Part shown: positions 2,671-34,353 of the stretch, piece by piece
Position numbering within the stretch: position 1 is the first letter of the stretch
Layout of the letters: each line of letters starts with the position of its first letter
Assembly (NCBI RefSeq): GCF_001441615.1
Contig: NZ_LAXJ01000005.1
Span: 1-64,000, forward strand
Reading direction: 5' to 3'
DNA: 64,000 bases
From: Roseovarius atlanticus
Lineage (GTDB): Bacteria; Pseudomonadota; Alphaproteobacteria; Rhodobacterales; Rhodobacteraceae
Translations under genes and position numbers: made by a program
Notes under the pieces: generated by a model
What the model saw: only the letters and a program-made list of their open reading frames with translations
What the model was told of the DNA's origin: nothing
Database searches by the model: none

Positions 2671-2679
2671 TTCGGCAGA

Positions 2680-2747
2680 GCCAGGGGCGCCTTCGGGCTG
2701 AGATGTACCCTTTGAACCTGACCCAGATCATGCTGGCGGAGGAAGGC
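2680..2747 (+). ncRNA. Thiamine pyrophosphate (TPP, thi-box) riboswitch
   Basis: The leader contains the conserved thi-box parts in order: GGGGCGCC near 2684, GGCTGAGA at 2697-2704, ACCCTTTGAACCTGA at 2708-2722, and CTGGCGGAGGAAGG closing the aptamer. GCC at 2680-2682 and GGC at 2745-2747 begin the P1 stem, and the P3 arm is very short (GCC-TTC-GGGC). The thiD Shine-Dalgarno GAAAGGAG lies about 40 nt downstream, so TPP probably represses thiD by hiding the ribosome site or ending transcription; the mode is inferred. Confidence 0.93.
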
Positions 2748-2797
2748 GCGACCGAAGCCGGTCGGACCCAGCCTTTTGCCGCAGCGAAAGGAGCCGG

Positions 2798-32042: not shown

Positions 32043-32071
32043 AAACGCCCCGTGGCTGCCACGGGGCGTTT
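32043..32071. terminator. Bidirectional rho-independent terminator
   Basis: AAACGCCCCGTGG (32043-32055) and CCACGGGGCGTTT (32059-32071) form a perfect 13-bp stem with a CTG loop, A-rich on the left and T-rich on the right. It serves both the VWA gene and the convergent hsp20 gene. A second hairpin, GGTGCAGC-TT-GCTGCACC, lies just after the VWA stop near 31879. Confidence 0.9.
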
Positions 32072-32559: not shown

Positions 32560-32645
32560 TGGAATCCTCCGTTGAGCGATACCTATGTGGATGCCTTCCC
32601 GAACGGGACAGGCGGTTGATGTCGACCCGCGACGCGGCGTCGGAC
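32560..32645 (-). ncRNA. Candidate ROSE-like RNA thermometer in the hsp20 leader
   Basis: In the minus-strand RNA, AUCGCUC (complement of 32574-32580) can pair with GAGGAU (complement of 32564-32569), hiding the GGAGG ribosome site. The pairing leaves one unpaired G inside UCGCU, which matches the U(U/C)GCU core of ROSE elements with their characteristic bulged G. The leader is about 85 nt, in the usual range, and the gene class (hsp20/ibpA) is the classical ROSE target. Confidence 0.5.
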
Positions 32646-32651
32646 AAACGC

Positions 32652-32681
32652 TATTTGGGAAGCGAAAAAGCCGGTTTCAAG
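32652..32681 (-). promoter_or_regulatory. Predicted sigma-32 (RpoH) promoter of hsp20
   Basis: CTTGAAA (complement of 32675-32681) and CCCAAATA (complement of 32652-32659) are separated by 15 bp, close to the RpoH pattern CTTGAAA-N11-15-CCCATNT. Transcription would start near 32645. Confidence 0.55.
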
Positions 32682-32700: not shown

Positions 32701-33522
32701 TCACTGGATTTTCTCGAAACGGGCCCCCGAGGCGTTGCCGCCGCGGGTCACATCGACCTTGCGAAAGCCGGTATTGGCGGTCGAAGGGGCCGAGGCAGCG
32801 CTGGCGCGCAGCTTGCGCTTGAGGTCATCGACCGTGTCGGGCAATTCCATGCCATAGGCGACGGTCGTGCCATGCTCGGTCTTGTGGCCGCCGACGACAA
32901 GGCTGACGATGCGGGCACGGTAGCCGCCATCGGAAAAGACCGGCGCGCCCGAGGAGCCGAAGGTCACGTTGCAGTTGAAGGAAATCAGGCCCTCGCCGCG
33001 GCGCAACACGTCGCACTGGCGTTCCCAGGACAGGGCGTCATCGCGCTTGCGTCCGTAGGAGACCACGCTGACATTGTCGCCCCGCGTGGGGTTCATGTGC
33101 AGGGCAAAGGGGCTGGCGGTGGCGGTGGGAATGGGGGTGCTGAGTTCCAGCAAGGCCACGTCGCGGCGCACATTATCGGCGGACATGCCGTCGGAGGCGC
33201 GATAGCCATCGGCCACCACGTAGCGGCTGATGTTGCGTGCGGCGATGGCGGCGCCGTCACGCAGCCCGGCGCGAAACACGATACGCTCTGGCAGAATCGG
33301 CGCGCCGCGGTTGTCGAAGACGCAGTGAGCCGCCGTCAGCACAAGGTTGTCGGCAATCAGCGTGCCGGTGCAATAGCTGTCCTGGCCCAGATCGATCCGG
33401 CCCACGGCCTCCCACCCCAGAAGGTCGTCGCGGTTGGTCAGCCGGATCAGGTCGCTGGCGGTGGCCAGGGTGGGCAGCGTCAGAGTGAAGACGAGCGTGA
33501 AGAGCGAAAACAGACGAAACAT
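32701..33522 (-). CDS. Secreted trypsin-like serine protease (paralogue 2 of tandem pair)
   Basis: A 273-residue S1-family protease with a Sec signal peptide (residues 1-22, cleavage after ATA/TAS). The triad is His66 in LTAAHC, Asp121 in RRDVALLEL and Ser191 in FGSSGAPVF, so it should be active. The C-terminal 40 residues are low-complexity and end ARFEKIQ. The start lies 3 bp after the stop of a closely similar protease gene, so the two are a tandem duplication in one operon. Substrates are unknown; both lack a PDZ domain. Confidence 0.88.
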   Translation of the reverse strand: MFRLFSLFTLVFTLTLPTLATASDLIRLTNRDDLLGWEAVGRIDLGQDSYCTGTLIADNLVLTAAHCVFDNRGAPILPERIVFRAGLRDGAAIAARNISRYVVADGYRASDGMSADNVRRDVALLELSTPIPTATASPFALHMNPTRGDNVSVVSYGRKRDDALSWERQCDVLRRGEGLISFNCNVTFGSSGAPVFSDGGYRARIVSLVVGGHKTEHGTTVAYGMELPDTVDDLKRKLRASAASAPSTANTGFRKVDVTRGGNASGARFEKIQ

Positions 33523-33525
33523 AAA

Positions 33526-34353
33526 TCAATCCAGGTCGGGCACGGCGAATTTCGCGCCGGTGTTGCGGTTCTGGCCGGTCGAGAACATTTCGACCCGGGC
33601 CTGGTCTTGCAAGCGTTCGCCGCTCTCGAGCGCGTGGCGCATCAGGGCAAGCGGCCTGTCGAGAGAGGCGCCAAGGGCGACCTTCTTGCCGTGGATCTCG
33701 GCCATGGCGGAGACGACCGACACGATGCGTGGCGCGCCGGTGTCGTCGAAGGAAAAGACCGGTGCGCCGGACGCGCCGTAATCGACGTCGCAGGACATCA
33801 CCAGCACGCCGCTGCGCTGTTCCAGCACCTGGCACATGTCCTGAAGCGAGGGTGCCTCGGAGCGTTCGCGCGCATAGCTGACCAGCCCGATGCGTTCATG
33901 CTTGCGCGGCTGGGTGTCGGTCTGGAACGGGACAACGCCGGACTTGGCGATGGGGTGGTGCAATTCCAAGAGGGCGATGTCGTTACGCACGCGCGCGGCG
34001 TCGATCCGGTTGGAATAATCGTATTCGGGATGCACCACCGCGCGGCGGACCCAGCGATAGGCGGTGGCGCGGCCGTTGCGCCAGCCGGCGAGAAACTCGA
34101 TATTCTGCGTATCGACAGGCTTGCCCGTCGTGGCATCGAACAGGCAGTGCGCCGCCGTCAGCACGAGGTCGGGCGCGATCAGGGCGCCGGTGCAAAAGCC
34201 GTTTCCGCCGATGTCGATACGCCCCACGGCCTGCCACTGGCGGCCGTCATCGGTGGTGTCCAGTCGCTGGAGCATGGCATCCTGTGCGGATGCGGGCGAC
34301 ATGGACCAGAGCAGGGCCATGACCAGCCCTGTGAAACCTATGCTCTTGAACAA
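33526..34353 (-). CDS. Secreted trypsin-like serine protease (paralogue 1 of tandem pair)
   Basis: A 275-residue S1-family protease with signal peptide MFKSIGFTGLVMALLWSMSP... cut after ASA (residue 23). Triad: His69 in LTAAHC, Asp125 in RNDIALLEL and Ser195 in YGASGAPVF. It shares architecture with the next gene, including VGRIDIG, CTGALIAPDLVLTAAHC-type block and the NRNTGAKFAV tail similar to ASGARFEKI. Probably acts in the periplasm or medium. Confidence 0.88.
   Translation of the reverse strand: MFKSIGFTGLVMALLWSMSPASAQDAMLQRLDTTDDGRQWQAVGRIDIGGNGFCTGALIAPDLVLTAAHCLFDATTGKPVDTQNIEFLAGWRNGRATAYRWVRRAVVHPEYDYSNRIDAARVRNDIALLELHHPIAKSGVVPFQTDTQPRKHERIGLVSYARERSEAPSLQDMCQVLEQRSGVLVMSCDVDYGASGAPVFSFDDTGAPRIVSVVSAMAEIHGKKVALGASLDRPLALMRHALESGERLQDQARVEMFSTGQNRNTGAKFAVPDLD

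Follow-up and report, generated by a model that had tools for sequence, protein, structure and literature searches.

ROSE elements were first described in the small heat-shock protein (sHSP) genes of rhizobia, and the short leader of an hsp20 gene in Roseovarius atlanticus raises the question of whether a roseobacter controls such a gene in a comparable manner, as had been proposed in a preliminary description of this locus. The analysis was carried out on a window of 64,000 nucleotides, representing the whole stretch of DNA studied, and on relatives of the gene in a collection of genomes. In our assessment, the hsp20 leader is, with high confidence, a ROSE-type RNA thermometer located under a heat-shock promoter. 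This assignment of the leader and its promoter is supported by the sequence, the predicted fold, conservation, compensatory changes, and the link to an sHSP gene.

The start codon of hsp20 (ATG, 32559-32557) is located on the minus strand, as are all elements of the locus listed in Table 1; the preliminary description had named no strand. The 155-aa product matched PF00011 with an E-value of 1.1e-18, and its best NCBIfam models were IbpA (E 1.3e-46) and IbpB, each scoring below its own curated cut-off. According to the scan of the genome collection, the closest named relatives of the protein are those of Roseovarius sp. MMSF_3350 and R. confluentis, featuring 99% and 98% identity, respectively. 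The probable intrinsic terminator rests on reading by eye and was not among the calls of a terminator pattern scan. Two adjacent genes encoding trypsin-like serine peptidases (32701-33522 and 33526-34353, minus strand) were found directly upstream of the hsp20 promoter. Elsewhere in the window, a TPP riboswitch (RF00059, 63.1 bits; 2673-2761, plus strand) was identified, representing the sole match of an Rfam scan of the window at the gathering thresholds.

Table 1. Features of the hsp20 locus, given in the direction of transcription; positions are counted from the first nucleotide of the window.
Feature	Position	Strand	Basis
-35 element CTTGAAA of the RpoH-type promoter	32675..32681	-	sequence and conservation in relatives
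-10 element CCCAAATA	32652..32659	-	sequence and conservation in relatives
Hairpin 1, GUCCGAC-[G]-CC...GG-GUCGAC, with bulged G; begins close to the presumed 5' end of the mRNA	32621..32645	-	fold, Rfam alignment, covariation
Hairpin 2, GCCU-[G]-UCCC...GGGA-AGGC, with conserved bulged G	32593..32613	-	fold, covariation
Hairpin 3, predicted thermosensor, GGUAUC-[G]-CUC-AACG-GAG-GAUUCC, UCGCU opposite Shine-Dalgarno	32561..32583	-	fold, conservation
Shine-Dalgarno GGAGGA, within hairpin 3	32565..32570	-	sequence
hsp20, encoding an IbpA-like sHSP of 155 aa	32092..32559	-	PF00011, NCBIfam
Probable intrinsic terminator: inverted repeat of 13 nt around a 3-nt loop, further T residues 3'	32043..32071	-	by eye

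Regarding transcription, the arrangement proposed previously, namely CTTGAAA and CCCAAATA separated by a 15-nt spacer and followed by an 85-nt leader, was recovered on the minus strand, the leader measuring approximately 85 nt if transcription starts about 6-7 nt past the -10 box, as is presumed here. To follow the promoter through relatives, the best 80 of 566 relatives from one scan of the genome collection were taken as the orthologue set, all of these loci carrying names that we take to be those of Rhodobacterales. A promoter pattern was defined as TTGA, followed after 14-20 nt by at least five of the six fixed letters of CCCANAT. It was present in 76 of the 81 leaders (the window and 80 orthologues) and missing from L021, L032, L060, L062, and L080; the gap between TTGA and the -10 box amounted to 16 or 17 nt in 75 of the 76 leaders bearing the pattern, and the commonest -10 forms in the relatives were CCCACAT, CCCAAAT, and CCCAGAT. 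As background, 16 matches were counted in 168,000 nt, corresponding to approximately 0.005 expected matches per zone searched. A C-rich -10 box is typical of RpoH promoters, and in the window it is combined with a -35 TTG at RpoH-like spacing. In R. sphaeroides, RpoHI and RpoHII were both described to require the -35 TTG (available text of PMC3441632). The heat-shock promoter postulated earlier is well founded as far as its layout is concerned: judged from its letters, it is a conserved promoter of the RpoH type, and RpoH is the probable sigma factor reading it.

Folding of the leader by RNAfold resulted in three hairpins, the last one lying over the Shine-Dalgarno sequence. The helix suggested in the preliminary description, AUC-G-CUC (32580-32574) opposite GAG-GAU (32569-32564) with a bulged G over the ribosome site, was recovered exactly. 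The fold energy of the leader was no better than that of shuffled sequences (z -0.46; 58 of 200 shuffles equally good), so that stability alone is no evidence and was dropped as such. The defining trait of ROSE-like elements is a U(U/C)GCU stretch in imperfect pairing with the Shine-Dalgarno sequence around a bulged G (PMC11342760; U(U/C)GCU also in PMC3669281), and two to four stem-loops in all were reported for ROSE-like thermometers (PMC4166951), as stated in the accessible parts of these papers. In the window, UCGCU stands opposite GGAGGA in imperfect pairing, and the bulged G is located within the Shine-Dalgarno helix in the fold of the window as well as in the RNAalifold consensus. Three stem-loops are present, hairpins 1 and 2 being backed by covariation, and the gene downstream encodes an Hsp20 (PF00011), a small heat-shock gene being the usual, if not exclusive, partner of such elements. 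The same features were found among the relatives. When the partner was fixed from the start-codon side, blind to pairing, UYGCU occurred opposite the ribosome site in 81 of 81 leaders, and four positions of hairpin 3 were paired in 81, 81, 81, and 79 of them under the same parse. Likewise, the bulged G was kept in hairpin 1 of 80 leaders (the remaining row being short there), in hairpin 2 of 80, and in hairpin 3 of all 81.

Covariation across Rhodobacterales hsp20 leaders had been named as a check of the proposal, and it turned out in its favor. A sequence-only alignment of the 81 leaders (A1) was evaluated with RNAalifold, yielding three hairpins with 19 pairs, nine of them with double changes, and an unpaired G in each 5' arm; for the counts, one outer pair of hairpin 3 was added to this set by hand, resulting in 20 pairs. 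In total, 96.2% of 1592 cells were paired, compared to 63.4% at most for controls with slid partners. Double changes were detected at 10 of the 20 pairs, a value reached by 2 of 500 shuffles, and comprised 120 cells versus a shuffled mean of 35.8, with none of the 500 shuffles reaching 120. Hairpin 2 featured double changes at five of seven pairs, with 98.8% of its cells paired, and hairpin 1 at three of six counted pairs. Hairpin 3 varies little within the order: of its seven pairs, two featured double changes, one of them in the core and the other being the hand-added outer pair, which was unpaired in 32 of the 81 rows. At the core pair, C-G was replaced by U-A in six leaders (L020, L060, L065, L068, L075, and L079), which belong, by title, to Aliishimia, Yoonia, Cognatishimia, Limimaricola, Pseudooceanicola, and Xinfangfangia. 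When mapped onto a protein tree of hsp20, this core pair required at least eight state changes and the hairpin-2 pair 59-78 at least 12; the tree has few well-supported branches, on which only one or two independent pairs are located, too few to test, and no phylogenetic p-value is therefore given. A further alignment (A2) was not used for counts, RNAalifold having suggested that hairpin 1 was misaligned in it.

The response of the leader to temperature was assessed by prediction. In the window, the pairing predicted for the hairpin-3 core decreased from 0.96 at 20 °C to 0.67 at 37 °C, 0.52 at 42 °C, and 0.30 at 50 °C, accompanied by an increase in the predicted opening of the Shine-Dalgarno sequence from 0.03 at 20 °C to 0.34 at 42 °C. 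Upon in silico removal of the bulged G, pairing of hairpin 3 stayed at 0.99 between 10 and 50 °C. For all 81 leaders, nearest-neighbor folding resulted in a mean core pairing of 0.66 at 20 °C and 0.54 at 50 °C (a drop of 0.127), and 0.5 was exceeded by 56 of the 81 leaders at the lower temperature and still by 43 at the higher one; with the bulged G removed, the means were 0.98 at 20 °C and 0.96 at 50 °C, compared to 0.54 for the unaltered leaders at the latter temperature. At 20 °C, the Shine-Dalgarno opening was 0.20 on average versus 0.32 in leaders with a shuffled 5' part (p 2e-5), and between 15 and 30 °C, the hsp20 leaders were less open at this site than 25 control genes (p 0.019-0.035). 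The gain in opening from 20 to 42 °C was 0.059 for the hsp20 leaders and 0.029 for the 25 control genes, a difference that was not significant (p 0.22). Since ROSE sensing was described to rest on non-canonical heat-labile pairs (available text of PMC4166951), which are, in our judgement, poorly described by nearest-neighbor rules, the weak melting across the set was read neither as a confirmation nor as a negative result. Predicted opening of the Shine-Dalgarno sequence with temperature is, thus, clear for the window and weak across its relatives.

These observations are compatible with the following mechanism. In the cool, UCGCU of hairpin 3 would pair with the Shine-Dalgarno sequence, the bulged G weakening the hairpin just to the point at which physiological temperatures can melt it. 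Warming would open hairpin 3 and allow the ribosome to bind, while hairpins 1 and 2 would probably remain folded and keep hairpin 3 in register. As RpoH-dependent transcription would also rise with heat, hsp20 would be controlled twice. The role of the 5' hairpins of ROSE elements has been described as not fully understood (available text of PMC3669281), and for the covarying 5' hairpins presented here, it is now directly testable.

A second sHSP gene (G000:C67:47317-47727, L002/L093) is encoded in the same genome. It is preceded by an RpoH-type promoter (CTTGCAG...CCCCATATT) and a leader featuring hairpin 1 and the helix GUC-[G]-CUU / AAG-GAC, without hairpin 2. Relative to the Shine-Dalgarno hairpin of the window, this helix shows double changes from A-U to G-C and from C-G to U-A. 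In a set of 30 paralogue leaders (from the own genome and 29 others, the best of 121), GUCGCUU was found in all 30 and AAGGAC in 26, and RNAalifold arranged them into two hairpins with an unpaired G in each, 2 of the 12 pairs showing double changes. Of the 121 genomes in the order sample, 120 contained two sHSP matches and one contained a single match (E ≤ 1e-15). As deduced from their sequences, the 30 leaders examined for the second sHSP gene probably carry a shorter, two-hairpin ROSE-like form.

Instead of sensing temperature directly, the leader could mainly represent a binding site for the sHSP itself, resulting in autorepression as for IbpA of Escherichia coli; heat would then release the protein onto aggregates, and melting would be secondary. 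By motif, the window protein possesses the matching residues (GIATRAFERKF and TYPPYN), presumably corresponding to those of E. coli IbpA. Moreover, hairpins 1 and 2 are upheld by covariation, with a conserved bulged G in each; they could serve as a platform for sHSP binding. For Pseudomonas, it was reported that the last hairpin senses temperature alone (available text of PMC3669281), yet hairpins 1 and 2 are maintained here. However, autorepression is without direct support in this clade, the paralogue manages without hairpin 2, and a UCGCU/Shine-Dalgarno helix with a bulged G is what a melting thermometer needs. We consider a leader acting mainly through autorepression to be unlikely, and a ROSE-type thermometer remains the preferred interpretation.

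To evaluate the range of the element, the leader was compared with the Rfam family RF00435 (ROSE). The model aligned to 32644-32553 of the window over all of its 94 positions, on the right strand and in the right register, with a score of 22.3 bits (E 0.3). Being below the cut-off of 45 bits, the leader lies outside the curated family, yet it fits the ROSE-like definition. With this full-length alignment added to UCGCU opposite the Shine-Dalgarno sequence, the bulged G, the 5' hairpins, the sHSP gene, and the compensatory changes, the proposal of a ROSE-like leader is upheld. None of the 20 relatives tested (of the 80) reached the gathering threshold of RF00435. A second RF00435 match in the own genome (L004, 17.8 bits) was located at neither of its sHSP genes and was, therefore, taken as chance.

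A covariance model (R1; 95 positions, 22 pairs) was then built from A1; apart from the ATG, it carries no information on the protein encoded downstream. R1 matched 281 of 292 sampled Rhodobacterales genomes (E ≤ 0.01), some of which may be conspecific with leaders used to build it. RF00435 matched 54 of the 292 genomes at E ≤ 1, four of them above its cut-off. All of these multi-genome scans, with either model and including those of the class and the phylum, ran with stricter filters at the expense of weak matches; with RF00435, for instance, the window's own genome (22.3 bits otherwise) was missed in the order sample. In the class sample of 385 genomes, 102 were matched by R1 (E ≤ 0.01), 97 of these being outside the order, and 26 by RF00435 at E ≤ 0.01, with three above the cut-off; in the phylum sample, R1 matched 17 of 200 genomes, 16 of which belong to the class of the window. 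The 97 genomes outside the order hold 106 R1 matches, 103 of which were fetched, and an sHSP gene was found by tblastn to adjoin 96 of the 103. Among the 84 of these 96 loci that entered alignment A3 (see below), the sHSP gene always had the same orientation as the match, and its ATG coincided exactly with the last three positions of R1 in 78.

Compensatory changes were also observed beyond the order. In alignment A3, the window was combined with 89 loci out of the 103 fetched. L194, L197, L200, L205, L209, L214, L215, L223, and L225-L230 (mostly short or low-scoring matches) were left out, and five loci lacking an sHSP gene (L138, L190, L212, L217, and L221) were included. In its 89 distinct rows, 94.5% of cells were paired and double changes were present at 19 of 22 pairs (hairpin 1, 7/8; hairpin 2, 7/7; hairpin 3, 5/7), these counts leaning to structure because A3 was fitted to R1. 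The counterpart of the outer pair of hairpin 3 was unpaired in 67 of the 89 rows. Beside the bulged G, the 96 leaders from outside the order featured C-G in 52 cases, U-G in 31, U-A in 10, and C-A in 3, GAGAA occurring with UUGCU in some and GAGGA with UCGCU in others.

Several further loci deserve mention. The four genomes of the order exceeding the RF00435 cut-off are represented by L085, L086, L087, and L088. In L085, L086, and L088, which belong to one genus (g7), the adjacent sHSP shares no more than 49-53% identity with the window protein, and in L087 it appeared, by eye, to be of another class; possibly, these loci are other sHSP lineages with the rhizobial-type element. In one genome (G588), two sHSP leaders of identical sequence (L174 and L175) contain the anti-Shine-Dalgarno arm GATATTGCTCA twice in tandem, and two alternative hairpins could form there. 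In Salipiger bermudensis, RF02645 (Ruegeria cis2 sRNA) matched with 106.2 bits close to hsp20 (L027:2828-2977).

The distribution also bears on readings that dispense with a thermometer. A conserved leader structure unrelated to temperature, serving for example mRNA stability or as an sRNA target or protein site and including the Shine-Dalgarno sequence by coincidence, would be in accordance with the weak thermodynamic contrast with the control genes; it is nevertheless very improbable, given the exact ROSE motif with its bulged G in 81 of 81 leaders, the sHSP genes beside 96 of the 103 matches outside the order, and the RpoH-type promoter. A chance inverted repeat or an artefact of a GC-rich leader, with which the fold z-score of -0.46 would agree, can practically be dismissed in view of the conservation and covariation in 81 leaders and the recovery of sHSP genes by R1 across the class.

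Besides sHSP genes, the ROSE-type model recovered other carriers. R1 matched the clpB leaders of three genomes of one genus (L212, L217, and L221), the ATG being located exactly at the end of the model; inspection by eye indicated hairpins 1 and 2, again containing an unpaired G, and a Shine-Dalgarno hairpin with a UGU bulge, not UYGCU. The ClpB identity was obtained from NCBIfam for a fragment of L221 only, and by likeness to L221 for L212 and L217. A clpB-like match (L190), whose start codon is 10 nt off the model end, was not counted in support of clpB, and the matches at a gene of no assigned kind (L230) and at a locus without reading frame (L138) are unexplained or due to chance. In a 1.2-Mb alphaproteobacterial genome, a weak match (L227/L231, G408:C12:26579-26671; E 0.0074) directly precedes rpoH, its leader featuring three hairpins of ROSE-like appearance with UUGCU opposite the Shine-Dalgarno sequence. 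The product was assigned to the sigma-32 subfamily by NCBIfam above the cut-off (E 5.4e-99), the RpoH equivalog model scoring just below its cut-off for the fragment tested. A second R1 match in this genome (L232, E 0.017) precedes an sHSP gene, as judged by eye. A search of the family and order of this genome for relatives of the rpoH leader returned that one genome alone.

In the accessible part of a review, ROSE elements are described as always tied to sHSP genes (PMC4166951), and later papers reported them at ABC transporter genes (PMC11342760 and PMC12857270, as far as available). Speculatively, and with considerable doubt on our side, the three bulged-G hairpins might represent a shared alphaproteobacterial heat-shock leader, sensing temperature by hairpin 3 and free sHSP by hairpins 1 and 2, which was placed on clpB in one family and on rpoH in a lineage with small genomes. 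If this were true, the placement on rpoH would mean that the master regulator and its chaperone share one RNA switch.

For the Rhodobacterales, a major marine group, the results indicate that a ROSE-type leader of hsp20 is near-universal, being present in 281 of the 292 sampled genomes. RF00435 with its cut-off overlooks almost all of these elements (4 of 292 found), and R1 recovers the element across the Alphaproteobacteria and points to clpB and rpoH as unexpected carriers. As stated in the available text of PMC4166951, more than 40 ROSE-like elements at sHSP genes of alpha- and gamma-proteobacteria were already described in 2005. It had also been claimed that ROSE in a roseobacter hsp20 is little reported, which is a fair statement, although such elements are not unreported: for Nautella sp. 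R11, ROSE-like motifs were noted in 2011 to be recognizable upstream of ibpA and hspD (PMC3230580). Like the window, that case concerns a roseobacter and small heat-shock genes (two there) with a ROSE-like motif; it consists, in the accessible text, of a single statement without structure, alignment, covariation, or clade survey. Beyond that paper, we know of no other report of ROSE or RNA thermometers for Rhodobacterales or Roseobacter from a literature search covering few subscription journals.

Among the systems known from other groups, the short ROSE-like elements of Pseudomonas ibpA (PMC3669281, available text) share sigma-32-type promoters with the window and consist of two hairpins, like the leader of the second sHSP gene, whereas the element of the window consists of three. 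The elements of ROSE-like and ROSE-G type known from ABC transporter genes (PMC11342760 and PMC12857270, available text) resemble the window in the bulged G within the helix over the Shine-Dalgarno sequence, but are located at genes other than sHSP genes; ROSE-G additionally differs by CUGCU and by a further bulged G, which lies on the Shine-Dalgarno side. RF00435 has in common with the window the position, strand, and register, the bulged G of hairpin 1, the bulged G of the last hairpin opposite the Shine-Dalgarno sequence, and the sHSP gene. Its consensus reads UUGCU, whereas UCGCU of the window places a C-G pair beside the bulge, and hairpin 2 of its consensus structure is without a bulged G, in contrast to hairpin 2 of the window. 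The element of the window is, in our verdict, a member of the known ROSE class, in a clade-wide form that is invisible to Rfam.
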